Under the pieces are notes generated by a model. It had not been told where the DNA came from. It saw nothing but the letters and a program-made list of their open reading frames with translations, and did not search any database. Below are positions 40,239 through 58,697 of a DNA stretch of 64,000 nucleotides, one piece after another (the first letter of the stretch is position 1; each line of letters begins with the position of its first letter). Position numbers and translations under genes: made by a program. This DNA is from Leucobacter tardus (GTDB lineage: Bacteria; Actinomycetota; Actinomycetes; Actinomycetales; Microbacteriaceae): the NCBI RefSeq assembly GCF_017583045.1, contig NZ_JAGFBF010000001.1, positions 434,001-498,000 on the forward strand, read 5' to 3'.

Positions 40239-40254
40239 GGATTGTTGACAATCC
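40239..40254. promoter_or_regulatory. GGATTGT-TG-ACAATCC operator over the importer promoter
   Basis: Perfect seven-base arms with a two-base centre, overlapping the consensus -35 box of the importer operon. The motif resembles sites of FCD-type GntR repressors (ATTGTnnACAAT), and related copies lie before the GntR gene at 56825-57535 and before the cation efflux gene. The block to transcription would be direct. Confidence 0.65.
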
Positions 40255-40274
40255 TCCCAGAACCTGTCTATTCT
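40245..40274 (+). promoter_or_regulatory. promoter of the ABC importer operon
   Basis: Consensus TTGACA and TATTCT are separated by 18 bases, predicting a start near 40281 and a leader of about 45 bases to the first gene. It is the strongest sigma70-like promoter in the window. Confidence 0.62.
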
Positions 40275-40327
40275 CGCTTCAACACGAGCAACGCAGCCGT
40301 GGGTTCACGAATCTTCCGGGAGGACGC

Positions 40328-41980
40328 ATGCACAGCCTCGAGGTGACGGATCTGAAGATCTCGATCGGAGGCCGCACGATCGTGAACGGGATCTCGTTCG
40401 CGGTGGGCCAGGGTCAGCGGGTCTGCCTGCTCGGCCAGTCCGGTTCGGGCAAGTCTCTCACCGCAGCCGCCGTTCTCGGGCGACTCCCCGCGAACGCGGT
40501 GACCGAGGGCAGCATCAAGATCAACGGCGTCGAGGTGCTGGGGCGCCCCTCCTCGAAGCGTCCGGACGAGGCCCGGGTCGCCATGGTCTTTCAGGACTCC
40601 GCGGTCGCCTTGAACCCGCTTGTGCGCATTCGTGAGCAGCTCGTCGAACCGCTGCGTCGGCACCGCGGGCTGTCTCGGCAAGACGCGCTCGCCGCGGCAG
40701 TGGAACTCGCCGACTCGGTTGGACTGCCCGACCCCGAACACCTCATCGGACGGTTCTCGGCCGAACTCTCCGGCGGACAGCGGCAGCGCGTCTGCATCGC
40801 ACTTGCACTCGCCTGCAACACTCGACTCATGGTGGCGGACGAACCGACCACCGCGCTCGATGTCGTCACCCAGGCCAAGGTGCTGAACGTCTTGAAGCGC
40901 TACACAGCCGGCCAGAACACGCCCGCGCTCCTCTTCATCACACACGACTTCGCCGTGGCGTCGGAACTGTGCAGCGACTCCGTCGTGCTCAAGGACGGCG
41001 AGATCGTCGAGCAGGGGCAGATCCACTCGATCTTCGCCAACCCCGGGAAGCCGTACACGCGCGAGCTCATCCGAGCCGCGCGGGCCGCGACGATCGAACC
41101 GTACATCGAACGGTTCCGCGCCGAGTGCGCGGCGGGGACGCCGTGCGCGCCGGACCCGCGGAAGTCGTTCTACGACATCGGCCAGGTCAGTCGGGAGTAC
41201 CGGATGCCGAGGAAGCGCCTGTTCGCGCCCCGCGAATGGAAACCGGCGCTGCACCCGACCAGCCTCACCATCGGTGAGGGAGAGCGCGTCGGTATCGTCG
41301 GGGTCAGCGGTTCAGGCAAAACCACGCTCTTGCGGCTCATGCTCGCCCTGGAGGAAACGGACACCGGTGCCGTCACCTGTCAGGGAAAGGCCGTGCACCC
41401 CGCCGATGTACGACACCTCAGGTGGTACCGCAGGCGGGTGCAGTACGTCCCGCAGGATCCGGCGAGCACGCTCGATCCGCTCATGACCGTTCAGGCGCTT
41501 GTGCGAGAACCCCTCGTGCGCCTGAACGTCACGGGAGATCACGACGCCATGGTGCACGAGGCGCTCGACTCGGTCGGCCTCGACCACAAGTTCCTGCGGC
41601 GTCGGGCGAGCGAACTCTCCGGCGGTCAGGCGCAGCGCCTTGCCATCGCCCGCGCGATCGCCACCCGCCCCGATTTTCTGCTCGCCGACGAACCGGTGAG
41701 CGGACTCGACCTGCCGATGCGGGAGTCGATCGTGCGGCTCATGCGCAGCGTCTCGGAAGAGCGCGGCACCGGCATCGCGGTCGTCTCGCACGACCTGGCG
41801 ATGGTGGCGAGCCTCTGCGAGCGCACCATCGTGATGCACGCGGGTGAAGTGGTCGAAGATCGCCCGACCGCCGAACTGCTCTCGGACCCGCGGCATCCGC
41901 GCACGCAGGAGCTTCGAGATGCGATCCCGACCCTGCACGTGCTCCCCGCCGATCTCGCACCGGAAAGGAAGACGGCATGA
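40328..41980 (+). CDS. fused dual ATPase of a peptide-type ABC importer
   Basis: A 550-residue protein made of two complete ABC ATPase domains in tandem. Domain 1 has Walker A GQSGSGKS at 36-43, signature LSGGQRQR and Walker B LMVADEPTTALD. It ends with a cysteine-containing tail (AAGTPCAPDPRKSF) like the C-terminal extension of OppD/DppD. Domain 2 has Walker A GVSGSGKTT, signature LSGGQAQR and FLLADEPVSGLD. Two ATPases that are separate proteins in Opp/Dpp are joined here. GGGAGG precedes the ATG. It is the first gene of the operon and overlaps the permease start (ATGA). Confidence 0.9.
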   Translation: MHSLEVTDLKISIGGRTIVNGISFAVGQGQRVCLLGQSGSGKSLTAAAVLGRLPANAVTEGSIKINGVEVLGRPSSKRPDEARVAMVFQDSAVALNPLVRIREQLVEPLRRHRGLSRQDALAAAVELADSVGLPDPEHLIGRFSAELSGGQRQRVCIALALACNTRLMVADEPTTALDVVTQAKVLNVLKRYTAGQNTPALLFITHDFAVASELCSDSVVLKDGEIVEQGQIHSIFANPGKPYTRELIRAARAATIEPYIERFRAECAAGTPCAPDPRKSFYDIGQVSREYRMPRKRLFAPREWKPALHPTSLTIGEGERVGIVGVSGSGKTTLLRLMLALEETDTGAVTCQGKAVHPADVRHLRWYRRRVQYVPQDPASTLDPLMTVQALVREPLVRLNVTGDHDAMVHEALDSVGLDHKFLRRRASELSGGQAQRLAIARAIATRPDFLLADEPVSGLDLPMRESIVRLMRSVSEERGTGIAVVSHDLAMVASLCERTIVMHAGEVVEDRPTAELLSDPRHPRTQELRDAIPTLHVLPADLAPERKTA

Positions 41981-43872
41981 CGCTCTCCACACAGGCCGTT
42001 CCGGCCCTGAGGCGCGCGCAGCGCCGCACCTCGCTCTCGAGCACGTCGCGAGCCGCCCTCATCTCGACGGTCTCGCGCATCGTCACGATCCTCGGCGTCG
42101 TCTTCCTGCTCGGCATCCTCCCGATCCTGTCGGGTCGCGACATCGCGATGTCGGTGTTCCGCTCGCGCTACGCCGAGGGCGAGGCCACGCCAGAAGCGCT
42201 CGAGTCCATTCGCCAGGAGCTTGGACTCGACGGTGGCGCGCTCGGCGCGTTCCTCACCTGGCTCGGCAACGCCGTGCAAGGTGACTTCGGCGTCTCGTGG
42301 GCGACCCGCAAGCCGGTGCTGCCCGACATGCTCTCGGCGCTCGGCGCCTCGCTGACGCTCATGGTCGCCGCCCTCGTGGTCGCCCTGATCCTGGGCGCGC
42401 TGCTCACCATTCCGACGTTCCGCCGCGGCTTGAACGGTCGGTCCGATCGCACCGGAGGCGGTGTCGCGGCGGCGTTCACGGCGCTCCCAGAGTTCCTGCT
42501 CGCCTCGGTACTGCTGGTCATCTTCGCGGTCTGGCTCGGTTGGTTCCCACCGTTCGGATGGAGGGGCGTCAACTACCTGGTCCTCCCGGCGCTGTCGATG
42601 GGGCTGCCTGCGGGTGGCTTCCTCGGGCGCCTCATGTCGGACGCACTGGCGAGCACGTTCAGCGAGCGCTGGGTGGCGACGTGGCAGGTGGCCGGGTACT
42701 CCAAGACCCGGATCATCTTCGCGGCGATCCGTCGAACGCTGCCGGGTGTGACGGCGCCGATGTCACTCATTCTCGTCGGCATCACTGCGGGCGCCGTCGT
42801 CGTCGAGCAGGTCTACGCGATCCCCGGCATCGGACGCGCGACGCTCGGCGCGGCGCAGGCGCAGGACCTCCCGAGCCTGCAGGCCGGGGTGATCCTCCTG
42901 ATGCTGCTCGCGGTCGTGCTCGGAATCGGTGCCACCCTCGTCCGACGTGTGCTTCTCGGTCCGGCGCTGCGATCGAACTCCCTCCCGGCTGCCGTGCCGA
43001 AGACTCCCAGCTCCAGATGGGCGCTGCTGCTGCCCGCCACCATGCTGCTCCTCCTGGTGGTCATGCTGCTCGCTGGTCTCCCCCGCGATCCGCTCTCCCT
43101 CGACTACACCCGCTTGCAGCCGCCCAGCTGGGAGGTGCCGCTCGGTACCGATGCGAACGGGCGTGACGTGCTGGCCCGCATTTCTCACGGCGCCATGTCG
43201 ACCATCGGAGTCGGCGCGATCGTCGCGGCGCTCTGTCTCGCGATCGGTCTCTTCATCGGCATGTTCCCGAACCTCGGCGCCGGACCGATCGAGGTCACGA
43301 ACGCCGCGCCCCCGATCATCGCCGGCCTCATCGTCGCCGCCGTGCTCGGCCCGTCGTCGTTCGGCGCCGCGCTCGCCGTTACGGTCGTGAGCTGGGCGCC
43401 CCTCGCCGCGCACACCGCGGCCCTCGTCTCCGAGGTGAAGGCGCAACCGCACGTGAAGATCGCCCCGGTGCTCGGCGTCGCCAATGTCCGCCTGATGCTC
43501 CGCTACGTGCTGCCGAGCGTCGTCGGACCGGTCTTCCGCCACGCCTGCCTGCGCCTGCCTGGCATCTGCCTCGCGCTCGCCGCGCTCGGCTTCCTGGGGC
43601 TCGGCCCGCAGCCGCCGCAGCCGGACTGGGGCCTCGTGCTCGCCGAGGGTCTGCCCTATGTGGAGCGCGCCCCGCTCGTGGTGCTCGTGCCGGCCGGAGC
43701 GCTCGTCATCCTCTCGATCTTCGCCGTGTCGCTCTCGAGCCTGAGCTTCGACTTCCGGGGCAACCGCACCCGACTCGGGCGCCGACGCAATCGTCTCGCC
43801 GGCACCGGCGACCCGACCACCACCACCCTGCAGACCGTCGGAGCGCCCAGCGCCGGCGCCGCAGGGCGCTGA
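41977..43872 (+). CDS. fused dual permease of a peptide-type ABC importer
   Basis: A 631-residue membrane protein joining two DppB/DppC-like permeases. The N-terminal half (1-325) contains QELGLDGGALGAFLTWLGNAVQGDFGVSW and an EAA loop WVATWQVAGYSKTRIIFAAIRRTLPG. The C-terminal half (about 340-600) contains the DppC signature LGTDANGRDVLARI and a second EAA-like loop ending VLPSVVG. About 11-12 helices are expected. With the fused ATPase it forms a complete transporter core from only two polypeptides; the binding lipoprotein is two genes further on. The cargo is probably a small peptide-like or amine compound. Confidence 0.9.
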   Translation: MTLSTQAVPALRRAQRRTSLSSTSRAALISTVSRIVTILGVVFLLGILPILSGRDIAMSVFRSRYAEGEATPEALESIRQELGLDGGALGAFLTWLGNAVQGDFGVSWATRKPVLPDMLSALGASLTLMVAALVVALILGALLTIPTFRRGLNGRSDRTGGGVAAAFTALPEFLLASVLLVIFAVWLGWFPPFGWRGVNYLVLPALSMGLPAGGFLGRLMSDALASTFSERWVATWQVAGYSKTRIIFAAIRRTLPGVTAPMSLILVGITAGAVVVEQVYAIPGIGRATLGAAQAQDLPSLQAGVILLMLLAVVLGIGATLVRRVLLGPALRSNSLPAAVPKTPSSRWALLLPATMLLLLVVMLLAGLPRDPLSLDYTRLQPPSWEVPLGTDANGRDVLARISHGAMSTIGVGAIVAALCLAIGLFIGMFPNLGAGPIEVTNAAPPIIAGLIVAAVLGPSSFGAALAVTVVSWAPLAAHTAALVSEVKAQPHVKIAPVLGVANVRLMLRYVLPSVVGPVFRHACLRLPGICLALAALGFLGLGPQPPQPDWGLVLAEGLPYVERAPLVVLVPAGALVILSIFAVSLSSLSFDFRGNRTRLGRRRNRLAGTGDPTTTTLQTVGAPSAGAAGR

Positions 43873-43924
43873 CCAACCCCCCCCGCCCCTCATCCACCCC
43901 ATCCCGCTCTCCGAAAGGAACCCC

Positions 43925-44599
43925 GTGGCCCTCGAACTGCCCCGCCCGAAGTACATCTCCTTCGACATCATCGGTACCCTCATCTACTTCGAGATGCGCA
44001 AGACCGTCGAGCCGATCGTCGCCGACCGCCTCGACGGCGACGCGCTCGAAGCGTTCTTCGACATGTTCAGCTTCATCCGGTACGACGAGATTCTGGAGTA
44101 CCGCCCGTACGACGAGGTGCTCGAGCGCTCGTACCGCCGCGTCTGCGCGCGCTTCGGACTCGAGGTCGCCGACGCCGACGTCGCCGCGATCCAGCGCGAC
44201 GTCATGGACTGGGGAGCCCACCCCGACGTCGCCGAGCCGCTCGCGAAGATGGCCGAGCACTTCCCGCTCGTCGCGCTGTCGAACGCGGACAACCGGCACC
44301 TCGACGCGTTCATCCCCCGTCTCGGCGCACCGTTCCACGCAGTGTTCACGGCGGAGCAGACGGGCGCGTACAAACCGCGCATCCAGGCCTTCGACTACAT
44401 GCTCGACCAGCTCGACGCGAGTCCCGAAGACTTCCTCCACATCTCCTCGCACCAGCACTACGACCACATCCCGATGGACAAGCTCGGCTTCACGAACAAG
44501 GTCTTTTTCGACCGCGGGTACGACCCCGATCTGCCCGCCTACGGCGCCGTGCGAGTGACCTCGCTCGACGAGGTCAACCGCGCGCTCGGCATCGCCTGA
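43925..44599 (+). CDS. HAD family hydrolase, haloacid dehalogenase type
   Basis: A 224-residue HAD-superfamily protein. Motif 1 is SFDIIGTLIYF, with the nucleophilic Asp but no second Asp, as in type II haloacid dehalogenases rather than phosphatases. Motif 2 is VALSNAD, the motif 3 lysine is in TGAYKPRIQAF, and motif 4 is in HISSHQHYDHIPMDKLGF. A dehalogenase fold is clear, but dehalogenation is not proven and the gene may act on a pathway intermediate. It starts with GTG behind GAAAGG. It lies between transporter genes, so it is part of the substrate-specific pathway. Confidence 0.83.
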   Translation: MALELPRPKYISFDIIGTLIYFEMRKTVEPIVADRLDGDALEAFFDMFSFIRYDEILEYRPYDEVLERSYRRVCARFGLEVADADVAAIQRDVMDWGAHPDVAEPLAKMAEHFPLVALSNADNRHLDAFIPRLGAPFHAVFTAEQTGAYKPRIQAFDYMLDQLDASPEDFLHISSHQHYDHIPMDKLGFTNKVFFDRGYDPDLPAYGAVRVTSLDEVNRALGIA

Positions 44600-44636
44600 G
44601 CCTTCGCCCTCCTCTCACCCACTCGAAAGGCACTCC

Positions 44637-46148
44637 ATGAACAGCAAATTCGGTCGCAGAGTCGCGACCGCCTGTGCGTTGACCGCCGGAGGCGCGCTCG
44701 CGCTCACCGGCTGCTTCAGCGGAGGCAGCGGAGGCGGCGGGAGCACCGACGACGCCCGCATCTCCGTCGCGATGTTGCAGCCTCCGAACGCCGGCATGAG
44801 CCCGTTCAGCGACGACATCGGCAAACTGACGCGCTTGAGCATCGCTGAGACGCTCGTGAACCTCAACACCGACCTCGAGATCGAGCCGATGCTCGCGACC
44901 GAGTGGGAGCAGACGGATGACACCACGTGGGTGTTCACCCTCCGCGACGACGTCACGTTCCAGGACGGCACGCCCTTCACCGCCGAGACCGTCAAGAACT
45001 CGCTCGACAAGGCCGTCGAGGCCGCGCCTCCGCCGCGCGCGCTGAACGGCGTCGAGATCTCGACCGAGGTGACTGGCGAGTACGAGGTGACCATCACGAC
45101 CGACGCCCCCGACGCGCTCATCCCCAACCGCCTCGCCAGTGGCCAGCTCTCGATGTTCGCCGAGTCGGCGTACGGCGACGATGGCACGGTGAATCCGGAG
45201 GGCACCGGCACAGGCCCGTTCGTGCTGACAGAATTGAACGGCACGACGACGGCGACGCTCGATCGCTTCGAGGACTACTGGGACGATCCCGCCATCCTGG
45301 CCGGCATCGACGTCTCGTTCGTGCCCGACGGCGCGGCGCGCGCTGCGGCGATCCGTTCGGGTGAAGCCGATGTCGCCGAGACGATCCCGGTCTCGCAGGT
45401 CAGCCTGCTCGATGAGGGTCAGGCGCACGAGGTCGAGATGCCGCGCACGACGATGCTCGCGCTGAACAATTCGGACGGCCCGTTCGCCGATCCCGCGGTT
45501 CGTGCCGCGGCGCGGCAGGCGATCGACGCGTCGGGCATCATCGACTCGGTCTACGAGGGGCAAGCCGACTTCTCGGGCGGGCTCCTCGGGCCGGCGATCC
45601 CGTGGGCGGCGGATCTGCGCGGTGACGTCTCGAGCGACGTCGCACCCGCGAAGGTCGACGGCGTGCCGATCACCATCGCCACGTACTCGGACCGCGCTGA
45701 GAACCCCGAGATCCTCGTGCAGCTCGAGAGCCAGTTGGAGGCCGCGGGCTTCGAGGTGACGCAAGACGTGCGCGAGTACATCAGCCTCGAGACCGAGATG
45801 CTCGACGGGGCGTTCGACGCGGTCGTCTACTCCCGCGGCACGCTGCTCGACACCGGCGACCCGCTCTCCTTCCTCGCCGCCGACTTCAGCTGCGACGGCG
45901 GATACAACATGACGCAGCTCTGCGACGAGAACGTCGACGCCATCATCGAGCGCGGCTCGCAGGCCGAGGCGGGCCCGGAGCGCCAGCAGGCGACCATCGA
46001 CGCCGAGACGGCGATCCTGCAGCAGAACGCGGTGATCCCGATCGTGAACGAGCGGGTGGTGCAGGCCGAGACCGGCACCTTCGTCGACATCGTGCGCGAT
46101 CCGCTCGAACGCCGCCTGATCTCCACCGAGACGAAACCCGCGGAGTGA
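44637..46148 (+). CDS. ABC transporter substrate-binding lipoprotein (SBP_bac_5)
   Basis: A 503-residue periplasmic-type binding protein anchored as a lipoprotein: signal 1-25 with lipobox ALTGC, Cys 26, then a Gly/Ser linker. The mature part follows the peptide-binding family 5: LNTDLEIEPMLATEWEQTDDTTWVF, RDDVTFQDGTPFTAETVKNSL, GTGPFVLTE. It captures the substrate for the fused importer two genes upstream. Ligand specificity is undetermined; family 5 also binds opines, nickel complexes and sugars. A strong hairpin directly follows the gene. Confidence 0.92.
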   Translation: MNSKFGRRVATACALTAGGALALTGCFSGGSGGGGSTDDARISVAMLQPPNAGMSPFSDDIGKLTRLSIAETLVNLNTDLEIEPMLATEWEQTDDTTWVFTLRDDVTFQDGTPFTAETVKNSLDKAVEAAPPPRALNGVEISTEVTGEYEVTITTDAPDALIPNRLASGQLSMFAESAYGDDGTVNPEGTGTGPFVLTELNGTTTATLDRFEDYWDDPAILAGIDVSFVPDGAARAAAIRSGEADVAETIPVSQVSLLDEGQAHEVEMPRTTMLALNNSDGPFADPAVRAAARQAIDASGIIDSVYEGQADFSGGLLGPAIPWAADLRGDVSSDVAPAKVDGVPITIATYSDRAENPEILVQLESQLEAAGFEVTQDVREYISLETEMLDGAFDAVVYSRGTLLDTGDPLSFLAADFSCDGGYNMTQLCDENVDAIIERGSQAEAGPERQQATIDAETAILQQNAVIPIVNERVVQAETGTFVDIVRDPLERRLISTETKPAE

Positions 46149-46152
46149 CCGC

Positions 46153-46186: not shown

Positions 46187-46236
46187 CTCCCCGCCACTGC
46201 TGTCCCCACCCCTGAACGAAACCGGAGCACCCGACC

Positions 46237-47520
46237 GTGAAGATGCACTCCTACTGGCTCGACACCGCGACGCCGAGCGGAGACTACACCCAGACCGAGA
46301 TCCCGAAGGAGGTCGACGTCGCGGTGGTCGGCGGCGGCTACACCGGGCTCTCGGCGGCGTATCACGCGGCGAAGGCCGGCAAGTCGGTCGCGCTCCTCGA
46401 GGCGCACGAGGTCATGTGGGGCGCCTCCGGACGGAACGGCGGCATGGCGACCACCGGCCTCGCCGTCGGGTTCCGCGACGCGATCAAGCGCTACGGCGAA
46501 CAGCGCGCCATCGGGTACTTCCGCGAGTACAACGCGGCCATCGATCTCATCGAGAACCTCGTTGCGGAGCACGACCTCGACGTCGATTACGCGCGCACGG
46601 GCAAGATGACACTGGCGTACAAGGAGTCGCACTGGGCCGGGCTGCAGCAGTCGGCCGAAGCGCTCAAGCGGCTCGTCGACCAGCCGGTGCAGCTCGTCGA
46701 TCGCGCGAACATCCGCAGCGAGATCGGCTCGGACGTCTATTACGGCGCGATGGTCGACCCCCTCGGCGCCGGCATGCACGTCGGCAAGTTCGGCCACGAG
46801 CTCGCGAGGCTCGCACTCGAGGCCGGGGCGACGATCCATGAGCGCGCCGAGGTCACCGATCTGCGCCGCATCGGCACCGGCACCATGCACGACCTGACCA
46901 CGCCGCGCGGCACCGTACGGGCTGGGAAGGTCATCGTCGGCACCAGCGGTTACACCGGCAAGCCGTTCGGCTGGATGCAGCGACGGGTGATCCCGGTCGG
47001 CAGTTTCATCGTGGTGACGGAGCCGTTGCCGCAGGTGCTCGTCGATGAGCTGCTGCCGAACCGGCGCATGGCGTCCGACAGCAAGAACTTCATCTACTAC
47101 TTCCGGATCACCCCCGACAACCGCCTGCTCTTCGGCGGGCGCGCGCGATTCGCCCTGTCGGATCCGTCGCAGGACCGCGAGAGCGGCGAGATCCTGAAGC
47201 GGGCCATGCATTACGTCTTCCCGCAGACGCGCGACGCGCGCATCGACTACATGTGGGGCGGTCTCGTCGACATCTCGATGGACCAAATGGTGCACGCCGG
47301 GCAGCACGACGGGCTCTTCTACTCGCTGAACTATTCCGGACACGGTGTGCAGATGGCGAACTACATGGGCAAGGTCATGGCCGAGGTCGTCGACGGGAAG
47401 CCGGAGGCGAACATCTGGCGCGACCTCAAGAACCCGTGGATTCCCGGGTACTTCGGGAACCCCTGGCTCCACCTGCGGGTGGGCGGGGCCTACTTCGGGC
47501 TCCAGGACAAGCTGAGCTGA
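46237..47520 (+). CDS. FAD-dependent amine oxidoreductase (DAO/PuuB-like)
   Basis: A 427-residue flavoprotein of the D-amino-acid-oxidase superfamily, closest in style to gamma-glutamylputrescine oxidase PuuB/OrdL. It carries the N-terminal SYWLDTATP tag common to that group, the FAD motif VAVVGGGYTGLSAAYHAAKAG near residue 28, and WGASGRNGGMATTG, the flavin-adjacent RNGG motif. The C-terminal FAD segment is LNYSGHGVQMANYMGK. It would oxidise a C-N bond of the imported compound to an imine and aldehyde. The start is GTG; an ATG two codons on is an alternative. The aldehyde dehydrogenase follows 46 bases later. Confidence 0.87.
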   Translation: MKMHSYWLDTATPSGDYTQTEIPKEVDVAVVGGGYTGLSAAYHAAKAGKSVALLEAHEVMWGASGRNGGMATTGLAVGFRDAIKRYGEQRAIGYFREYNAAIDLIENLVAEHDLDVDYARTGKMTLAYKESHWAGLQQSAEALKRLVDQPVQLVDRANIRSEIGSDVYYGAMVDPLGAGMHVGKFGHELARLALEAGATIHERAEVTDLRRIGTGTMHDLTTPRGTVRAGKVIVGTSGYTGKPFGWMQRRVIPVGSFIVVTEPLPQVLVDELLPNRRMASDSKNFIYYFRITPDNRLLFGGRARFALSDPSQDRESGEILKRAMHYVFPQTRDARIDYMWGGLVDISMDQMVHAGQHDGLFYSLNYSGHGVQMANYMGKVMAEVVDGKPEANIWRDLKNPWIPGYFGNPWLHLRVGGAYFGLQDKLS

Positions 47521-47566: not shown

Positions 47567-49057
47567 ATGAGTGCGTGCACGTGTGCCACAGCGGCTCCGC
47601 AGACGCGGGCCGACGATCCCGGACTGAGCGCGCGGGGCCTTCCCGGCGGCGGCTTCGTCGCGGGCGCCTGGATCACCGACGGGCTGTCGCTCGCCGTGAC
47701 CGACCCCGAGAACGACACCGAGATCGCTCGGGTGTACGTCGGCGACGAGGTCGACATCGAGACCGCGGTCGCGGGCGCCGTGCACAGCCTGGAGACCGAC
47801 ACCTGGGAGCTCTGGGAGCGACGAGAGACCCTCGAGCGAGCCGCTCGGCTCGTGCGCGAGGAGGCCGACCGGATCGCCGCCATCATCTCGGCCGAGAGCA
47901 GCAAGACGATCACCGAGGCCACCCGGGAGACGGCGCGCGCTGCCGAGACGCTGCGCCTCTCCGCCGACGCTGCGCACGTGCTCGAGGGCGAGACGCTGCC
48001 CTTCGCGGACACGCCGCGCGGCGTGGGCCGCTTCGGGTGGAACCGGCGCACGCCGCTCGGTGTCATCGCGGCGATCACGCCGTTCAACGACCCGCTGAAC
48101 CTCGTGGCGCACAAGGTGGGCCCCGCGCTGCTGGCGGGCAACGCCGTCGTCCTGAAACCGGCGCAGACGACCCCGCTGTCCGCGCTCGCGCTGCAGGACA
48201 TCCTGCTGCGGGCCGGCATGCCCCCCGGGCGCGTGTCGGTGCTGGTGTGCACGCGGTCCGCGGGCACGGCGCTCGTGGCGGATCCACGGGTCGCCGCGGT
48301 CTCCTTCACCGGTGGTCCCGCGACGGGTGACGCACTGGCGCGCGCGGCCGGCGCGCGCACACTGCTCATGGAACTCGGCGGCAACAACGCCGTCGTTGTC
48401 TGCGCCGACGCCGACGTGCCCGCGGCCGCCGCCGGCATCGTCGACGGCGCGTTCGGTGTCGCCGGGCAGAACTGCCTGTCGGTGCAACGGGTCTACGTGC
48501 ACGAGAGCCGGTACGCCGAGCTCGAACGCCTCGTCGTCGACGGGACCGAGCGTCTCATCGTCGGCACCAAGCACGACAGTGCGACCGATGTCGGTCCGCT
48601 GATCGGCGAGCGGGAGGCGCGACGCGTCGAGTCGTGGGTCGACGAGGCGGTCGCCGCGGGAGCCACTCGGCTCACCGGCGGCGTGCGCACGGGTGCGTTC
48701 GTCACGCCAACGGTGCTGACCGACGTCCCGGACGACGCGCGCGTGCTGACCGACGAGGTGTTCGGTCCGGTCGTCTCGCTCGTGCCGTTCAGCGATCTCG
48801 ACGAGGCGCTGGCGCTGGCAAACGACACGGACTTCGGCCTGCAGGCCGGGGTGTTCACCGAATCCGTGAGCACCGCGATGTACGCAGCGGAACGCCTCAG
48901 GGTCGGCAGTGTGCTCATCAACGACACGAGCGACTTCCGGATCGACGCCATGCCGTTCGGCGGGTCGAAGCGGTCGGGGGTCGGGCGTGAGGGCGTGGCG
49001 AGCGCCGTGCTCGCCATGAGCGAGCCGAAGAACATCATCGTGAATCGATTGGGGTAG
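47567..49057 (+). CDS. aldehyde dehydrogenase family protein
   Basis: A 496-residue NAD(P)-dependent aldehyde dehydrogenase. TPFNDPLNLVAHKVGPALLAGNAVVLKPA binds the cofactor. SFTGGPATGDAL, the general base Glu in MELGGNNAVV (about 272) and the nucleophilic Cys in AGQNCLSVQRVYV (about 306) are present. The class resembles lactaldehyde/phosphonoacetaldehyde-type dehydrogenases. It probably oxidises the aldehyde released by the preceding amine oxidase. The Cys-rich start (MSACTCATAA) is unusual. It ends six bases before the next gene, so it is co-translated in the operon. Confidence 0.88.
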   Translation: MSACTCATAAPQTRADDPGLSARGLPGGGFVAGAWITDGLSLAVTDPENDTEIARVYVGDEVDIETAVAGAVHSLETDTWELWERRETLERAARLVREEADRIAAIISAESSKTITEATRETARAAETLRLSADAAHVLEGETLPFADTPRGVGRFGWNRRTPLGVIAAITPFNDPLNLVAHKVGPALLAGNAVVLKPAQTTPLSALALQDILLRAGMPPGRVSVLVCTRSAGTALVADPRVAAVSFTGGPATGDALARAAGARTLLMELGGNNAVVVCADADVPAAAAGIVDGAFGVAGQNCLSVQRVYVHESRYAELERLVVDGTERLIVGTKHDSATDVGPLIGEREARRVESWVDEAVAAGATRLTGGVRTGAFVTPTVLTDVPDDARVLTDEVFGPVVSLVPFSDLDEALALANDTDFGLQAGVFTESVSTAMYAAERLRVGSVLINDTSDFRIDAMPFGGSKRSGVGREGVASAVLAMSEPKNIIVNRLG

Positions 49058-49062
49058 CGCGC

Positions 49063-50172: not shown

Positions 50173-50227
50173 ACGCGCCGCGCTGGAGCGCAGCAGGCCC
50201 CGGCAGCGCACGGAGAGGAATCGACAC

Positions 50228-50704
50228 ATGACCGCACCGACCACCGAGACCCCGGAACACGCACTCGAGCGCCTCGGGCTCGCGCTCCCACCGGTCGACG
50301 ACGACCCGCACTACACGAACGCCCGCGCCGCCGCGGACGGGCAGATCTTCATCTCGGGTCAGTTGCCGTACCGCGACGGGGTCCTCCCGATGAGCGGACG
50401 CGTCGGCGCGGAGGTGAGCGTCGACGACGCTCGCGACTTGATGCTCCAGGCGACGCTGAACGGTCTCGCGATCGCCGCCCAGGCCACCGGTGGCCTCGAT
50501 CGCGTGCGGATGATCCAGATGCTCGCGTTCGTGAACGGTGTCGATGGGTTCGCACAGCAATCACGCGTTGCCGACGCGGGCAGCAATCTGCTGACGGACG
50601 TCCTCGGCGATGATGGCCGACACGCCCGAACCGCGATCGGTGTCGCGAGCCTGCCCCGCAACAGCGCTGTCGAGGTGCAGTTCATCTGCGAGGCGAAGCG
50701 GTGA
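50228..50704 (+). CDS. RidA/YjgF family protein
   Basis: A 158-residue Rid-family protein: HYTNARAAADGQIFISGQLPYRDG, LMLQATLNGLAIAAQATGGLDRVRMIQMLAFV, and an Arg in SLPRNSAVEVQFICEA at the C terminus, the usual active-site Arg position. RidA enzymes hydrolyse reactive enamines or imines made by PLP enzymes and amine oxidases, both of which are encoded just upstream. The start is preceded by GAGAGGA, and the end overlaps the SDR start (GTGA). Confidence 0.87.
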   Translation: MTAPTTETPEHALERLGLALPPVDDDPHYTNARAAADGQIFISGQLPYRDGVLPMSGRVGAEVSVDDARDLMLQATLNGLAIAAQATGGLDRVRMIQMLAFVNGVDGFAQQSRVADAGSNLLTDVLGDDGRHARTAIGVASLPRNSAVEVQFICEAKR

Positions 50705-51438
50705 CCTGGTCCGGTGCCCGGGTGGTCATCACCGGCGCGTCGAGCGGGATCGGGGCGGCGGTCGCCGACCGCTTCCGCCGGGCCGGCGCGCGGCTGCTGC
50801 TGACGGGGCGCCGCGCTGAGGCGCCGGACGGAGCGGGCGACCGGGACGTGTATCTCGCCGGCGATCTGGCGGACGCGCACTTCGTCGACGCGCTCATCGC
50901 CCGCGCCGTGCAGGAGTTCGGCGAGATCGACGCGCTCGTGCTCTGCCACGGACTGCAGGGCGATGGGGCGCTCGGAGACATGCCGGTATCGCGTGCGGCC
51001 GCACTGCTCGAGGCCAACGTGCTCACCGTCTTCGCGGTGGTGCAGCGCGCGATCCCGCATCTGCGCGACGCAACGGGGTCGATCGTCTGCGTGAGCTCGC
51101 GGTTCGGCCTCGTCGGCGTGCCCGGGCAGGTGATGTACTCGGCGGCCAAGGGCGGTCTCGTCATGTTCGCGCAGGGTGCCGCGGTCGAGCTCGCGCCCCG
51201 GGGGATCCGCGTGAACGTCGTGGCGCCCGGACTCACCCTCACCCCGCGGATCGCGGAGGGGTTCGGTCGGCGCCCGGATCCCGAGCAGTACGCGGCGACG
51301 CGCGCCGCCTCCGTTCCCCTCGGTCGCCTCGCCGAACCCCATGAGATCGCCGAACCGATCTTCTTCCTCGCGTCGCCGGCGGCGTCGTACATCACGGGAG
51401 CCGTGTTGCCGATCGACGGGGGATACACGGCGGCGTGA
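50701..51438 (+). CDS. short-chain dehydrogenase/reductase, paralogue A
   Basis: A 245-residue SDR. Cofactor motif TGASSGIG is at about 10-17, catalytic Tyr/Lys in VMYSAAKGG near 145, and it ends GAVLPIDGGYTAA. The usual NNAG motif is replaced by LVLCHGLQ in both this protein and its paralogue at 54876-55643, with which it shares most residues (roughly 70 percent by eye). It is the last gene of the catabolic operon, coupled to RidA by a four-base overlap, and may reduce or oxidise a hydroxy-acid intermediate. Confidence 0.85.
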   Translation: MTWSGARVVITGASSGIGAAVADRFRRAGARLLLTGRRAEAPDGAGDRDVYLAGDLADAHFVDALIARAVQEFGEIDALVLCHGLQGDGALGDMPVSRAAALLEANVLTVFAVVQRAIPHLRDATGSIVCVSSRFGLVGVPGQVMYSAAKGGLVMFAQGAAVELAPRGIRVNVVAPGLTLTPRIAEGFGRRPDPEQYAATRAASVPLGRLAEPHEIAEPIFFLASPAASYITGAVLPIDGGYTAA

Positions 51439-51511
51439 CGCCGCGCAGCATTCATCAGACGTAAGATGGGCAGCGCTACTCGTCAGCTCACCGCGATGCC
51501 CGGAGGTCACT

Positions 51512-53122
51512 ATCGCACGCCAGCACTCCGGTGTCCCCCTGCGCCGGCGCACGCTCCGTCGCCAGCGTCCGAGAGTCATCGGGGCCTCGCTCTGCCTGAT
51601 CGGACACCAGTCCTGCGAGGCGCTCGTGCCCGTGGCGATCGGCCTGGCCATCGACACCGCGGTCACCCGCAGCAGTCCGTCTCTGCTGCTCTTCTGCCTC
51701 GCCGGATTCATCCTCCTCTTCACGGTGCTCATCATGTGCTACCGGTGGTTCGCGCGATTCGGCGAAGGTGCGGTCATCGATGAGAGTCATGCCCTGCGCA
51801 CCGAGCTCGCCGCCCGGGTGATGGGGCCAGGCGGCCTCCGCCGTCGTCACGGGGAGCTCCTCACGATCGCCTCGTCAGACGCCGACCAGTCGGCGCGCAG
51901 CATCATCTGGCTCTCGGGCCTCTGCGGCGCCGGCGCGGCGCTCGCGGTCAGCTGCGGCGTACTCCTCTCCATCGACCTGCTGCTCGGCGCGGTGCTGATC
52001 GGCACCGCCCTCGTCGTGACGGTCGCCCTCAACCTGCTCTCCCCGCTCATCTCGCATCGCGTCGCCGACCAGCAGCGCACGCTCGCGGAGGCCTCCGCAC
52101 TCGCGACCGACCTCGTGACCGGGCTGCGCGTACTCCACGGCCTCGGGTCGCAGGAGAACGCGACCGAACGCTATCGGGCGGCAAGCCGGTCGGTCGAGAC
52201 GGCCGGCATTCGCGCCGGCACCGCGAAGTCCGTGCAGCTCGGCGCGAGCGTGCTCGCCGGCACGATCGTGCTCGTGGTCTCGGTCGCCTTCGCGGGTCTC
52301 CTCGCGCTCGACGGATCGATCAGCGTCGGCGCGTTCGTGGCCGCGGTCGGTGCCGCCCAGTTCATCTCCGAGCCGCTCACCGCCATCGGGTTCTACCTGC
52401 AGATCGGTGCCGCCGCGAAGACGAGCGCCGCGCGCGTCGACGCCGTGCTCTCCGAGCCGCCTGATGCCGCTGCCGCCGACGCCGTCGGATCGACGAAGAC
52501 CGCCACCGACTCCGACACCGCGTTGCCGTTCCGTCACCCGATCGACGTGCCTGCAGGTGCCTTCATCGGGGTCGTCGCCGACCCGGTCGAGGTCGAGCGG
52601 ATCCCGAGCGCCCTCGTACTGCCTCCGGGCGCCAGAATGCACGTCGAGCCGCACCACGCCGACCTGTTCGCCGGGTCCATCGCCGACAATCTCGCCCTCG
52701 GCGGCGCCGCGGGCGACACGTGGCCCGCCATCGATGCCGCGGGTGCGCGCGAGTTCGTGGACGCCCAGCCCGCAGGCATCGACGAGCACGTGCGCGACCG
52801 GGGGCTCAGCCTGTCGGGCGGGCAGCGCCAGCGACTCGCGCTCGCCCGGGCCCTGCACACCGACCCCGACGTGCTCGTGCTCATCGAGCCGACCACCGCC
52901 GTCGACGCCATGACCGAGGAATCGGTCGCCGCCGGGATCCGCGCGCTCCGCCACGCGACCGACCGTCCCGCCCGGACGACCGTCGTGATCACGAGCAGCC
53001 CGGTGCTGCTCGCGCACACCGACCGGGTGGTGCTCGCCGTCGGGAACGACGCCCCGGTGCACGGCTCCCACCACCACCTGCTCGCGCACCACGACGACTA
53101 CCGCGCACGGATCCTCGGATGA
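51512..53122 (+). CDS. ABC exporter half A, catalytically degenerate
   Basis: About 537 residues: six-helix exporter membrane domain (residues about 25-310), then an NBD lacking key parts. The expected Walker A region reads GAFIGVVADPVEVERIPSA, so the P-loop and some following residues are missing. Signature LSGGQRQR is intact (52811-52825). Walker B is VLVLIEP, the Asp changed to Ile but the Glu kept. The H-loop His is replaced by Ser in VVITSSP. The start is uncertain: in this frame no ATG/GTG/TTG lies between the SDR stop and the first helix. An ATC five bases after GGAGG is used here; the first GTG (51626) would cut helix 1. It overlaps half B (ATGA). Confidence 0.82.
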   Translation: MARQHSGVPLRRRTLRRQRPRVIGASLCLIGHQSCEALVPVAIGLAIDTAVTRSSPSLLLFCLAGFILLFTVLIMCYRWFARFGEGAVIDESHALRTELAARVMGPGGLRRRHGELLTIASSDADQSARSIIWLSGLCGAGAALAVSCGVLLSIDLLLGAVLIGTALVVTVALNLLSPLISHRVADQQRTLAEASALATDLVTGLRVLHGLGSQENATERYRAASRSVETAGIRAGTAKSVQLGASVLAGTIVLVVSVAFAGLLALDGSISVGAFVAAVGAAQFISEPLTAIGFYLQIGAAAKTSAARVDAVLSEPPDAAAADAVGSTKTATDSDTALPFRHPIDVPAGAFIGVVADPVEVERIPSALVLPPGARMHVEPHHADLFAGSIADNLALGGAAGDTWPAIDAAGAREFVDAQPAGIDEHVRDRGLSLSGGQRQRLALARALHTDPDVLVLIEPTTAVDAMTEESVAAGIRALRHATDRPARTTVVITSSPVLLAHTDRVVLAVGNDAPVHGSHHHLLAHHDDYRARILG

Positions 53123-54870
53123 CCGCGACACCGCATCCGGACCGCCTGCCGCTCGCCGGGGTCAGCGGTGTGCGCCGCGCCATCGGCGGCTACGTGCGCC
53201 GACAGCGCGCACTCGCGATCACCACGATCGCGCTCGCCGCGGCGGCGGCCCTCGCCGGCCTCGTCGCGCCCTGGGCCGTCGGACTCATCGTCGACGCCGT
53301 GCTCGGCGAGGGCGACCGCACCCGGGTCCTCGTGCTCGTGGCCTGGGTCGCGGGCGCCGGGGTGCTCAGCGCAGCGCTGCGCATGGTGAGCGCCGCGCTC
53401 GTCGCCCGCATCGGCCAACGGGTCCTCGCCCGCATGCGCGAAGACGTCATCGGCGCGGCGCTGCATCTCCCGTCCGCCCGCATCGAGCGCGCCGGCCGCG
53501 GCGATCTGCTGAGCCGAGTCGGTGACGACGTGGCCGTCGTCGGCGGCGTCGTCGCGGGCCTCCTCGCTCCATGGGTGGGCGCCGCGCTGACCGTCGCACT
53601 CACCATGGTCGGCCTGTTCGCGCTCGACCCCTGGCTCGCCCTCGCCGGACTCACCTCGATCCCGGTGTATGTGCTCGCGCTGCGGTGGTACCTGCCGCGC
53701 GCCGCCCCCCGCTACGCGGCCGAGCGCGCGGCCTTCGGCGATCGCGCCGAGGCGCTCGTCTCATCGCTGGAGGGCATGCCGACGATCCGCGCGTACGGGG
53801 CCGAAGCGTCGCAGCTCGCCACCGTCACCGACGCCTCGAACCGCGCCCGCCGACTGTCGCGCGACGTGCTCTGGTTCGCGAGCGGTTGGGGCAAGTGGAT
53901 GAACCTCGCCGAGCTCGTCGGCCTGGGCGCGATCATCGCGGCGGGATTCCTGCTCGTCTCGACCGACGCGGTCACCGTCGGCGCGGTCACGGCCGCCGCG
54001 CTGTACTTCCACCGCCTCTTCAACCCGCTCGGGCTCATCGTCTTCAGCTTCGACGAGGTGCAGTCGGCGTACGCGAGCCTGCAGCGCATCGTCGGTGTCA
54101 TCGAGTTTCGTCGACCGGCCGAACCGGCTGCGCCCGATGAGCGCCCGCGCGGATCCCTCTCGGCGCACGGGATCACGCACCGCTACGGCGCGCACGAGGC
54201 GCTGCGAGACGTCTCCATCCGGGTCGAGGCCGGTGAGCAGATCGCGCTCGTCGGGTCGAGCGGTGCCGGCAAGTCCACGCTGGCCGTGATCCTGGCGGGC
54301 CTCGCAGATCCGAGTGAGGGAGAGGTGCGACTCGACGGCGACCCCATCGCCCGCGTGGCACACGCGCACCCCAGGCCGGTCGTGCTCGTGTTGCAGGAGG
54401 CGCACATCTTCGCCGGACCGCTCGCCGACGACCTGCGCATGGCCAGGCACGACGCGACCGACGCCGAGATCGCGGCGGCACTGCAGCTCGTCGGAGCGGA
54501 CTGGGTCGCCGGGCTCCCCGAGGGAATGCGCACCGTGGTTGGCGAGCTCGGTCATCGGCTCACCCCCGAGCAGGCCGCGCAGGTCGCGCTCGCCCGGGCG
54601 GCGCTCGCCGATCCCCCCGTCGTGATCCTGGACGAGGCCACGGCGGAGTCCGGCAGTCGCGGCGCACGGCGGCTCGAACGCGCGGCTGAGGCGGTGCTGC
54701 GGGGGCGCACCGCCGTCATCGTCGCCCACCGGCTGCGGCAGGCCCAGTCCGCCGATCGAGTGCTGGTGATGGCAGACGGACGCATCACCGAGTCGGGCAC
54801 GCACGACGAGCTCGTGGCGCTCGACGGTGCGTACGCGAGGCTCTGGGCGGCGTACCGCTCGGGCGGGTAA
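53119..54870 (+). CDS. ABC exporter half B, ATP-binding partner
   Basis: A 583-residue exporter half. Six-helix membrane domain (about 40-310) with LRMVSAALVARIGQRVLARMREDVIGAALHLP, then an NBD. Walker A GSSGAGKST (54253-54279), Q-loop VLQEAHIF, Walker B VVILDEA and H-loop VIVAHRL are intact. The signature is LTPEQ instead of LSGGQ (54559-54573) and the D-loop reads AESGS. It therefore supplies the Walker motifs, while half A supplies LSGGQ, giving one complete ATP site per heterodimer. The cargo is unknown. It overlaps half A and is five bases before the SDR paralogue. Confidence 0.9.
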   Translation: MTATPHPDRLPLAGVSGVRRAIGGYVRRQRALAITTIALAAAAALAGLVAPWAVGLIVDAVLGEGDRTRVLVLVAWVAGAGVLSAALRMVSAALVARIGQRVLARMREDVIGAALHLPSARIERAGRGDLLSRVGDDVAVVGGVVAGLLAPWVGAALTVALTMVGLFALDPWLALAGLTSIPVYVLALRWYLPRAAPRYAAERAAFGDRAEALVSSLEGMPTIRAYGAEASQLATVTDASNRARRLSRDVLWFASGWGKWMNLAELVGLGAIIAAGFLLVSTDAVTVGAVTAAALYFHRLFNPLGLIVFSFDEVQSAYASLQRIVGVIEFRRPAEPAAPDERPRGSLSAHGITHRYGAHEALRDVSIRVEAGEQIALVGSSGAGKSTLAVILAGLADPSEGEVRLDGDPIARVAHAHPRPVVLVLQEAHIFAGPLADDLRMARHDATDAEIAAALQLVGADWVAGLPEGMRTVVGELGHRLTPEQAAQVALARAALADPPVVILDEATAESGSRGARRLERAAEAVLRGRTAVIVAHRLRQAQSADRVLVMADGRITESGTHDELVALDGAYARLWAAYRSGG

Positions 54871-54875
54871 CATCG

Positions 54876-55643: not shown

Positions 55644-55670
55644 CGCGACGCTCGTCCGTGCCCTCGGGCC

Positions 55671-56198: not shown

Positions 56199-56238
56199 CG
56201 TGCGGACCTTCCCAGGAGCGATCGGTACGGTCGATGTT

Positions 56239-56258
56239 GTCGCTACAACCGTAGCGAC
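56239..56258. promoter_or_regulatory. 8-4-8 palindrome, candidate MarR operator
   Basis: GTCGCTAC-AACC-GTAGCGAC, perfect arms, located between the divergent MarR and DoxX genes. A second shorter palindrome (GTTGT-CGCT-ACAAC, 56236-56249) overlaps it, so two repressor dimers or a graded site are possible. Confidence 0.65.
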
Positions 56259-56289
56259 GCGACCCGCAGAACGCCGACGAAAGGCTCGT

Positions 56290-56736: not shown

Positions 56737-56824
56737 CGGAAGGTTCGGGGGCGCTCCGGCACGGGTGTCCCCGAACCCGCGCCCCGCGGGCCGACGGCTT
56801 CACCCGGCGACCCGTCGTCCGGGT

Positions 56825-57535
56825 CTACTCCTCCGGTCGACCGTGACGGAGCGAGCCGTCGTCGTCGTGAGTGTGCAGCTGGTAGTCGTCGAGCGACAGG
56901 TGGTTGTGCAGCGCGAGGTGCACCGCCTCCATGTCACCCGAGCGCAGCTTCTCGACGATGTCGAGGTGACCGGGAACGACGCGCGACCGGTTGTTCTCGC
57001 TGAAGCCGGACCACTGGGCCATGCAGATGAGCGCTTCGGTCGCGAGCGTCGAGTAGGCGCGCACGAGTCGTCGGTTGCGTCCGTGCTCGACGAGCGTCAT
57101 GTGGAAGCGCAGGTCGAGGCGGCGCAGCAGATCCCACTGCTCGGCGGCGACGGCCTCGCCCATCTCCGTGGTCATCGCGGTGAGCTCGTCGGCGATGCGA
57201 TCGCGTTCGGCGTCATCGAGCTTGGTGACGATCTCGGCGGCGGCGCACTCGATGACCTCGCGGGCCTCGTAGATCTCGGCGATGTCGCGTTCGGTGATCT
57301 CGCGCACGAAGACGCCGCGGTTCGGCAGGCCGATGAGCAGACCTTCCTGCACCAGACGGTGCAGGGCCTCGCGCACGGGTCCGCGCGAGACGCGGAGCTG
57401 GCTCGCGACCTGCGCCTCGTTGATCTGATCGCCCGGCTTGAACGCGCCATCGATGATGCGCTCGCGCAGCTGATCCGAGATGATCACGGCGGTCGGCCGG
57501 TGTTCGAGGGCTGAGAGTGCCTGCACTCCGCTCAT
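56825..57535 (-). CDS. GntR family regulator, FCD domain, putative master of the shared operator
   Basis: A 236-residue FadR/VanR-type regulator. Winged helix (about 15-75): ISDQLRERIIDGAFKPGDQINEAQVASQLRVSRGPVREALHRLVQEGLL. The FCD domain (about 85-220) carries the metal-type residues in DLRFHMTLVEHGRNRRLVRAYSTL and ends in an LALHNHLSL segment. GAGGAGG precedes the ATG. Its promoter carries a GGATTGT-like palindrome, and the same motif lies over the importer promoter at 40239-40254, 16 kb away. I infer that it represses itself and that operon, released by a pathway intermediate. Confidence 0.87.
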   Translation of the reverse strand: MSGVQALSALEHRPTAVIISDQLRERIIDGAFKPGDQINEAQVASQLRVSRGPVREALHRLVQEGLLIGLPNRGVFVREITERDIAEIYEAREVIECAAAEIVTKLDDAERDRIADELTAMTTEMGEAVAAEQWDLLRRLDLRFHMTLVEHGRNRRLVRAYSTLATEALICMAQWSGFSENNRSRVVPGHLDIVEKLRSGDMEAVHLALHNHLSLDDYQLHTHDDDGSLRHGRPEE

Positions 57536-57581
57536 CGCGCCTCCTCAAGTGGTCCGGAGTCCCAGGGTCGAGGCTCTCGTA

Positions 57582-57597
57582 GGATTGTAAGCAATCC
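57582..57597. promoter_or_regulatory. GGATTG-TAAG-CAATCC operator over the GntR promoter
   Basis: Six-base perfect arms, extended to AGGATTG/CAATCCT at 57581-57598. It agrees at 13 of 16 positions with the site over the importer promoter and covers the -10 box of the GntR promoter, fitting autorepression. Confidence 0.6.
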
Positions 57598-57613
57598 TGG
57601 TTGAGATTACCAA
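57584..57613 (-). promoter_or_regulatory. promoter of the GntR gene
   Basis: Minus-strand TTGGTA and TACAAT are separated by 18 bases. The start is expected near 57577, about 40 bases before the ATG. The operator sits over the -10. Confidence 0.5.
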
Positions 57614-57627
57614 TGGGTTGACGAATG

Positions 57628-58659
57628 CTACGGGTGCACCGTGGCCTCGTGCGCCGCATGGTGCGCGGGTTCGAGTTGGATCGTGCAGTGGCTCGTGTCG
57701 AAGTGCTCGCTGAGGCACGCATGCAACTCGTCGAGGATCTCGTCGTACCGATCCCAATCGAGCGTCTCCTCGTCGATGACCACGTGCGCCGACATCGCGT
57801 TGACGCCCGACGTGATGGTCCAGGCGTGCAGGTCGTGGACCACTTCCACGCCGGGTACCGAGAGCATGTGCTCACGGGTCTGATCCAGGTCGACGTCCTT
57901 CGGCGTGCTCTCGAGCAGGATCCGCACCACGTCGCGCAGCAGACTGTAGGCGCGGGGCGCGATGAGGAGCGCGATGGCGAACGCCGCGATCTGATCCACC
58001 CAGTTCCATCCGGTGAAGAGGATGATGAAGCCGGCCACGATCACGGCGACCGAACCGAGCAGATCGCCCAGCACCTCGAGGTACGCGCCGCGAATATTGA
58101 TGCTCTCCTTCTGGCCCGACTGCAGGATGAGCAGCGACACCAGGTTCGCGATCGCGCCGATGATCGCGGCGACGAGCATCGGACCGGTCTCGATCTCGAC
58201 CTCGCTGCCGATGCGCTGGATCGCCGTATAGACGATCACGATGCAGATCACGCTGAGGATGATGCCGTTGATCATCGCCGCGAGCACTTCGACGCGCATG
58301 AGCCCGTACGTGCGCTTGGACGTGGCGGGCAGCGCGGCGATGAAGGTCGCGATGAGGGCGATGAGCACGCCCGTCGCATCCGTCAGCATGTGCCCGGCGT
58401 CAGCGAGCAGCGCGAGCGAGCCCGAGATGAACGCGCCGATCACCTGGACGATGAAGATCGTCGCCGTGATGGTGAGCACGATGACGAGTTTCTTCCGGTG
58501 CTTGCCGCCCGAGGTGGCGTGACCGTCCAGCCCGTGGTCGTGATTGTGGCCGTGACCACCCGCGTCCACGGCCACAGGGCGGGCCGGATGCCCGTCGCTG
58601 AACTCGGCGCCGTGCGAGTGATCGTGACCGTGGTCGTCGTGGTGTCCGTGCGTTCCCAT
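57628..58659 (-). CDS. cation diffusion facilitator (Zn/Co efflux-type)
   Basis: A 343-residue CDF transporter. A His/Asp-rich N terminus (HGHHDDHGHDHSHG and GHGHNHDHG) is followed by six helices and a cytosolic C-terminal domain (SVPGVEVVHDLHAWTI). The helix 2 metal motif is intact (LADAGHMLTDA, HxxxD). In helix 5 the usual HxxxD reads ExxxD (YLEVLGDLLGS), which may shift metal choice. It exports Zn, Co or similar ions using the proton gradient. Its ATG is six bases after the -10 and has no ribosome site, so the mRNA is probably leaderless. Confidence 0.88.
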   Translation of the reverse strand: MGTHGHHDDHGHDHSHGAEFSDGHPARPVAVDAGGHGHNHDHGLDGHATSGGKHRKKLVIVLTITATIFIVQVIGAFISGSLALLADAGHMLTDATGVLIALIATFIAALPATSKRTYGLMRVEVLAAMINGIILSVICIVIVYTAIQRIGSEVEIETGPMLVAAIIGAIANLVSLLILQSGQKESINIRGAYLEVLGDLLGSVAVIVAGFIILFTGWNWVDQIAAFAIALLIAPRAYSLLRDVVRILLESTPKDVDLDQTREHMLSVPGVEVVHDLHAWTITSGVNAMSAHVVIDEETLDWDRYDEILDELHACLSEHFDTSHCTIQLEPAHHAAHEATVHP

Positions 58660-58665
58660 GCCGCC

Positions 58666-58694
58666 AGATTACCAGGATTGTAAATTGTTGACAA
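58666..58694 (-). promoter_or_regulatory. promoter of the cation efflux gene (leaderless)
   Basis: Minus-strand TTGTCA and TAATCT are separated by 17 bases, with an extended TGG before the -10. The start codon begins six bases after the -10, the same spacing as at the MFS promoter. Confidence 0.55.
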
Positions 58695-58697
58695 TCC
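58675..58697. promoter_or_regulatory. GGATTGT-N9-ACAATCC with inner ATTGTTGACAAT
   Basis: The outer arms match the importer operator arms but lie nine bases apart; the inner 58684-58695 palindrome ATTGTTGACAAT matches its core exactly. It overlaps the -35 box of the cation efflux promoter. Confidence 0.5.

Follow-up and report, generated by a model that had tools for sequence, protein, structure and literature searches.

Shared operator sites suggest joint control of an importer operon and a CDF metal exporter by an FCD-type GntR regulator in Leucobacter tardus

Genes for CDF metal exporters are usually thought of as being under the control of metal sensors. Palindromic operators are described for FCD regulators of the GntR family. 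AlkR, a regulator of the FCD/VanR group, gives the footprint ATTGTCAGACAAT over promoter elements (PMC12042122), and a two-base spacing between GT and AC is listed for GntR, HpxS, HypR, MdcY, PrpR and UxuR (PMC4494728). In the portions of these two papers that were covered, FCD operators of the type described below are already known. Metal in or near the FCD pocket is reported for CitO and DgoR in the portions of the sources covered. Among the matches listed from the open-access literature, there was no GntR/FCD control of CDF or zinc export and no catabolic FCD regulon that includes a CDF exporter of its own. Here, a candidate for such a regulon is described in Leucobacter tardus. The window, meaning the whole stretch of DNA that was analysed, is 64,000 nucleotides long (GCF_017583045.1, NZ_JAGFBF010000001.1, 434,001-498,000, forward strand). 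It holds an importer operon, a CDF cation exporter gene and the gene of a GntR/FCD regulator, called GntR57 in this text. Each is preceded by a predicted operator.

40239-40254, + strand: predicted operator GGATTGTTGACAATCC of the importer operon, covering the -35 element (TTGACA at 40245-40250; TATTCT to 40274)
57582-57597, - strand: predicted variant operator GGATTGTAAGCAATCC of GntR57, covering the -10 element (TACAAT)
58684-58695, within 58675-58697, - strand: predicted operator ATTGTTGACAAT of the CDF gene, in a wider inverted repeat, GGATTGT-N9-ACAATCC
56825-57535, - strand: GntR57, GntR/FCD regulator and likely binder (PF00392, PF07729; D141/H145/H190/H212)
57628-58659, - strand: CDF cation exporter (PF01545, PF16916; TIGR01297, 276.5 against a cut-off of 82.35)

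The original prediction had placed one operator at these three positions, over two -35 elements and one -10 element, and had proposed a single GntR protein as its repressor. All three sites lie where it put them, and the overlaps with the importer -35 and the GntR -10 hold. The promoter scan gives TTGACA-18-TATTCT from 40245 on the + strand for the importer and TTGGTA-18-TACAAT on the - strand, from 57613 to 57584, for GntR57, where the -10 element is within the site. The CDF palindrome holds TTGTCA; 17 bases on there is a weak TANNNT that ends 6 bases before the ATG. Sequence comparison supports a shared operator, which one FCD-type GntR protein is the most likely to bind.

Allowing up to two mismatches, the window has 7 occurrences of ATTGTNNACAAT where 2.39 are expected, and 0 of 100 shuffles gave as high a count. 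Two copies are exact, where a second-order Markov model expects 0.00017 per strand. Rather than occurring in many unrelated places, the exact site is found five times in the 2.95-Mb genome (about 0.008 expected, using the composition of the window), and the reversed pattern as a control had 0 matches there. The genomes were scanned with patterns. Each of the five exact sites precedes a gene for transport, catabolism or a CDF protein.

C1 474241: exact site, importer operon
C1 492684: exact site, CDF gene
C1 599571: exact site, 180 bases before the gene of a SolA-like amine oxidase
C1 700675: exact site, LigM-type vanillate O-demethylase
C1 704760: exact site, Liv-like ABC importer

Weak matches in the same genome also occur at C6:89868 and C1:532033; another, C5:462438, was dropped as being inside an open reading frame. 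The SolA-like protein scores 280.2 bits against a cut-off of 257 for N-methyl-L-tryptophan oxidase, and its unlinked gene extends the candidate regulon beyond the original prediction. In G000 and G011 this gene is far from the cluster and has its own exact site, which in G011 precedes a HAD gene and SolA. In G017 and G033 it closes the importer run, in the same orientation. In G069 it is within the cluster, where the run is broken by contigs and operon membership is only presumptive. The LigM-type enzyme scores 893.3 against a cut-off of 580. The name of the Liv-like importer was given by eye; no NCBIfam model matched its binding protein.

By its domains GntR57 is a member of the GntR family and its FadR/FCD subfamily (PF00392, 66.6 against 27 bits; PF07729, 68.4 against 24.3 bits), and ATTGT-NN-ACAAT at the promoters is of the TKGT/ACMA type expected near promoters for FadR/FCD operators. 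GntR57 misses the cut-off of the PhnR-like model TIGR03338 (124.4 against 271.5 bits). The genome encodes 21 FCD proteins. Orthologues of GntR57 with at least 62% identity are present in 6 of 54 Leucobacter genomes, and more distant relatives (38-39%) are encoded in G004, G008 and G062. Beyond Leucobacter, orthologues (55-64%) were found at five Agrococcus loci and one locus of Microbacterium oxydans; three of the 11 hits in that wider search, from Herbiconiux (36-46%), were excluded as too distant, and two were G065 and G069 again. The orthologue comparisons cover 12 distinct loci of Leucobacter, Agrococcus and Microbacterium. The segment VSRGPVRE is identical in 12/12 orthologues. Residues D141/H145/H190/H212, which we take from FCD structures to be the metal site, are all kept in 11 of the 12, with Asn for Asp in L130, and the same Asp/His/His/His set is found in 14/15 family proteins aligned.

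Exact sites go with the regulator. The six genomes with GntR57 have 5, 7, 4, 3, 3 and 5 of them (27 in total; mean 4.5), and 26 genomes drawn from the 48 of the genus without an orthologue have 17, spread over 10 genomes (mean 0.65; Mann-Whitney p 8e-5). The reversed-pattern control had no match in the six genomes and a single one, in G030, in the set of 26. Of the 27 sites, 24 belong to the importer (6), the CDF gene or a CDF-type promoter (6), GntR57 (4), SolA or HAD-SolA (2), LigM (3) and Liv (3). Another, in G017, separates a DAO-like oxidase gene from a divergently oriented gene for an MFS-like transporter (identified by eye), and the last two are elsewhere in G011. Sites with a TG/CA centre number five in the 26 genomes. 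Two of these, in G004 and G008, are at most 7 kb from a GntR57-like gene in another catabolic cluster (L067 at about 7617 and L068 at about 8158, with the GntR57-like FCD gene 2 and 6.5 kb away); the exact site in L068 has a DUF3830 gene on one side and an arylmalonate-decarboxylase-like gene on the other, and the L067 genes are similar. The other three are in G035, where L066 (G035:C1:1835001-1853000) has identical ATTGTCAACAAT copies with their flanks at 8539, 8674 and 8809. With a spacing of 135 bases, these are apparently a tandem repeat.

The sites are also conserved in place. The importer site is exact in all nine loci with a visible importer start (G000, G011, G017, G033, G065, G069, L127, L128, L129), and a site with at most one mismatch is found in 6/6 Leucobacter GntR57 promoters. 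Eight of nine visible CDF promoters have the exact site; that of A. terreus has one mismatch, and that of L128 is cut by a contig end. In several promoters a third ATTGT half-site is 7 or 8 bases away (ATTGTAAATTGTTGACAAT; ATTGTTGGATTGTTGACAAT), which might permit cooperative binding. Around the exact site, the 23 bases of ATTGTCAACAATTTACAATCCTG are invariant in the 5/5 Leucobacter CDF promoters linked to GntR57. At an E value of 1e-60 or better, 50/54 genomes have a CDF match, and 47 matches have at least 62% identity. Upstream regions were compared for the best 30 of these 47, 5 linked and 25 unlinked, and no site within two mismatches was found before any of the 25 unlinked relatives (about 250 bases upstream of the match).

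The CDF gene had been described as an apparently unrelated metal exporter, with the GntR gene 17 kb away from the importer operon. It is in fact a member of a conserved cluster, directly upstream of GntR57 at 10/12 loci in three genera, and the 17 kb lead to the other end of that same cluster. The protein belongs to the CDF family, with Cation_efflux and ZT_dimer domains and a TIGR01297 score over the cut-off, and misses the cut-off of the ZitB zinc exporter model NF002923 (232.2 against 408 bits). Its motifs are HxxxD in transmembrane segment (TM) 2 and ExxxD (EVLGD) in TM5. Zinc CDFs usually have His in the TM5 motif. A changed metal specificity of the linked CDFs was considered and rejected: EVLGD is the same in 36/36 rows, linked or not. 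A tree was built of 34 CDFs, after the duplicates L078 and L125 and the fragment L128 had been removed from 37 rows. In it, 8/9 linked CDFs fall into a single clade (99/95), in which Microbacterium is nested among the Leucobacter rows and whose sister is the unlinked CDF of G072. L130, the ninth, is on a long branch elsewhere in the tree; because it falls outside the linked clade, the linked label requires two changes rather than one. No second CDF match at 1e-60 is present in the five Leucobacter genomes that have a linked CDF. From this and the tree, we read the pump and regulator as having moved together.

GntR57 probably controls the importer operon, its own gene, the pump and the distant amine oxidase. 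The operator shared in the three genera by the importer, the pump and usually the gene of the likely repressor points to joint induction of nutrient use and metal export. In its full form, the explanation that we favor, and consider likely to be right, is that GntR57 represses a regulon that includes a dedicated CDF exporter through ATTGTNNACAAT and answers to one inducer. GntR57 would bind ATTGTNNACAAT as a dimeric repressor and block RNA polymerase by sitting over the -35 of the importer operon, the CDF gene and the unlinked SolA-like oxidase, or over the -10 of its own gene. The block would be lifted once a substrate or intermediate occupies the FCD pocket. In response to a single inducer, GntR57 and the CDF metal exporter would then be expressed along with the importer, the oxidase and dehydrogenase encoded with it, and the SolA-like oxidase. 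Sites over -35 and -10 elements fit such repression by occlusion, relieved by a ligand. Binding by GntR57, repression and the inducer are what we infer from the observed sites, promoter overlap, conservation, linkage and association with GntR57.

Several findings weigh against the sites as first described or against this explanation. The claim of the original prediction that the 12-base cores are alike stands for the importer and CDF sites, both exact ATTGTNNACAAT; the GntR site, at C1 491584, is a one-mismatch variant and one base off a palindrome (ATTGTAAGCAAT). A site over the CDF -35 is backed by the TTGTCA within the palindrome and not by the consensus promoter scan of the window, which does not list this promoter; it was accepted despite the scan because TANNNT is at the same position in 5/5 linked Leucobacter CDF promoters. 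The 16-mer GGATTGNNNNCAATCC, with two mismatches allowed, occurs 3 times in the window, as often as in 13/100 shuffles, and is not significant. The relatives compared are not independent, so that the p-values are too good. G011 has two exact sites that do not belong to the regulon; one precedes a gene named MarR-like by eye, and the other is next to a further FCD gene. Directly before GntR57, no site is present at four Agrococcus loci, and the CDF gene is missing at G065 and L131. Finally, G004 has no GntR57 orthologue, and its LigM and Liv sites remain, with one mismatch each; a second FCD gene beside Liv (L002:17577-18227, minus) goes with the LigM and Liv sites in G000, G011, G069 and G004.

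This last point leads to the alternative that survives best. The motif may be common to several FCD regulators, with GntR57 acting on the importer, CDF, SolA and itself and the Liv-side FCD regulator acting on LigM and Liv, with or without cross-talk; we regard the chances of this as evenly balanced. The Liv-side gene is present in all four genomes with exact or one-mismatch LigM/Liv sites, and in G069 and G004 the repeats in its own promoter are built from related half-sites. In G029, the LigM and Liv promoters are without the site, and the Liv-side FCD gene was not found in the fetched stretch. However, the Liv-side protein has 30% identity to GntR57, a recognition segment that reads ATRASVRH instead of VSRGPVRE, and 2/4 metal ligands missing. 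The LigM and Liv sites are moreover exact, 6/6, in the three genomes that have both genes and GntR57 (G000, G011, G069), and mutated at one base, 2/2, in G004. Whether these two sites are targets of the Liv-side regulator is close to a toss-up.

The CDF gene could also be a passenger. In that case the site before it would belong to the promoter by which an operon of CDF and GntR57 regulates itself, and the pump would have no role in the pathway. The four Agrococcus loci mentioned above, which have no site between CDF and GntR57, agree with this, as do G065 and L131, where two sites still precede the regulator without a CDF gene. Yet the CDF site is still exact where GntR57 has an internal site (5 Leucobacter loci and M. 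oxydans), and neither the 23 invariant bases nor the retention of the pair at 10/12 loci is in line with a passenger. We consider this alternative doubtful. At L131, one exact and one one-mismatch site are found before the regulator. In G065 (L117, 16748-16905), a CDF-type promoter with operator is before GntR57, and an open frame that begins behind it with a GTG seems to continue into GntR57; there is no significant CDF remnant beyond the promoter.

Improbable, in our view, is that GntR57 is mainly a metal sensor, in which metal in the D/H/H/H pocket frees the DNA and the pump is the main target. The four metal residues are kept in nearly all orthologues, and zinc, nickel or copper abolish DNA binding in vitro by HypR, a zinc-binding FCD repressor (PMC6608401, in the portion covered). 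In vivo, however, HypR target promoters were unchanged by zinc, and its authors see zinc as a cofactor for an organic ligand (same portion), and the largest target here is the importer operon with its pathway genes. That the palindrome is a mere by-product of good -35 elements, as the TTGACA within ATTGTTGACAAT and the several sites over promoters could suggest, was rejected as very improbable, since the 25 unlinked CDF upstream regions are free of it, exact sites are rare (17) in the 26 genomes without GntR57 although -35 elements are present there, and the palindrome covers the -10 in the GntR57 promoter.

Returning to the proposed GntR57 regulon, the importer operon consists of the following genes.

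40328-41980, + strand: importer ATPase with two fused ABC domains, Nik/Dpp type (Pfam ABC_tran)
41977-43872, + strand: importer permease with two fused BPD_transp_1 units (profile matches)
43925-44599, + strand: HAD-type hydrolase (PF00702; TIGR01428, 116.7 against 125.4, just below the cut-off)
44637-46148, + strand: solute-binding protein, SBP_bac_5; the nearest PDB proteins are nickel-binding
46237-47520, + strand: FAD-dependent DAO-family oxidase (profile matches)
47567-49057, + strand: aldehyde dehydrogenase (profile match)
49063-50172, + strand: D-threonine aldolase / 3-hydroxyaspartate dehydratase-like enzyme (profile match)
49880-50704, + strand: RidA/YjgF-like protein (longest open reading frame; true start probably later)
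50701-51438, + strand: SDR oxidoreductase

The ATPase scores 354.7 against 332.55 bits for NikE and 353 against 318.7 bits for NikD, as whole-protein scores summed over two fused domains. The importer was not filed as a nickel importer because the binding protein misses the NikA-type cut-offs (NF045468, 210.5 against 600; TIGR02294, 115.7 against 393). Genes upstream of the importer promoter encode a class-III aminotransferase, another aldehyde dehydrogenase and an enzyme of the tartrate-dehydrogenase type (470.6 against 470.4). Together with the operon, this enzyme set fits an N-substituted amino acid as the substrate. An ABC exporter gene pair (ABC_membrane, ABC_tran) is also inside the cluster, at 51341-54870 of the window; it has matches in G011 and none in the fetched cluster stretches of G017, G033, G065 and G069.

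A related cluster with four exact sites is found in an order-level relative (G053, L060; G053:C1:1128001-1148000). Its genes encode a DAO (59%), a HAD, an aminotransferase, an aldehyde dehydrogenase, a TtuC-like protein, a binding protein and two FCD GntRs. It adjoins a CDF of another type (17039-18286, +) with an ArsR-like gene (by eye) before it, and there is no site within two mismatches directly before this CDF gene.

Why the pump is present is a more tentative matter. The imported compound may carry metal, as an amino-carboxylate or metallophore-like chelate, and the metal may be expelled after the ligand is degraded; if the substrate is a chelator, metal would arrive with it and must leave. 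This seems to us the most plausible reason for the pump, though on its own it is less likely than not. The ethylenediaminetetraacetic acid (EDTA) binding protein EppA binds free EDTA and not metal-EDTA (PMC7312458, in the portion covered), and this argues against a metal chelate as the reason for the pump. A broader version seems unlikely to us: a horizontally moving regulon in which metal-amino-carboxylates are imported, FAD amine oxidases degrade the ligand, a CDF distinct from resident CDFs expels the metal, and a metal-holding FCD pocket senses the complex. If that version is true, one operator serves both catabolism and metal detoxification. A catabolic FCD regulator with a CDF exporter of its own in three genera would be an instance of metal export wired to nutrient use, and the short list of genes and promoters offers a route to finding the substrate.

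The comparisons with known systems that follow rest on the portions of the sources covered. AlkR resembles what is proposed for GntR57 in being an FCD repressor with a palindrome over promoter elements (PMC12042122). ATTGTCAGACAAT comes close to the likeness to sites of VanR-like FCD regulators that was first suggested, although the AlkR center has three bases and the one here two; AlkR is concerned with alkane oxidation, and no metal exporter is mentioned. The FadR-subfamily consensus TKGT/ACMA is fitted by TTGT-NN-ACAA here, and no CDF-containing regulon was found in the portion of that survey covered (PMC4494728). The EDTA importer of Chelativorans sp. BNC1 is an ABC importer for a metal chelator, and its binding protein EppA is of the NikA/DppA/OppA-like superfamily; the words 'GntR' and 'efflux' occur 0 times in the main text of that paper (PMC7312458). 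HypR of Streptomyces coelicolor, of the FadR subfamily, represses amino-acid catabolism as a zinc-binding FCD protein and regulates its own gene; its operon includes a DAO-family gene and it also has unlinked targets, which resembles what is proposed here. It differs in its TACAATGTCAC-like operator and in having no CDF among its listed targets (PMC6608401). For the exporter, the counterpart is zitB of S. coelicolor, an actinobacterial CDF exporter gene that is likewise under dedicated transcriptional control, but by the zinc-sensing activator Zur and not by a catabolic FCD regulator (PMC5472717).

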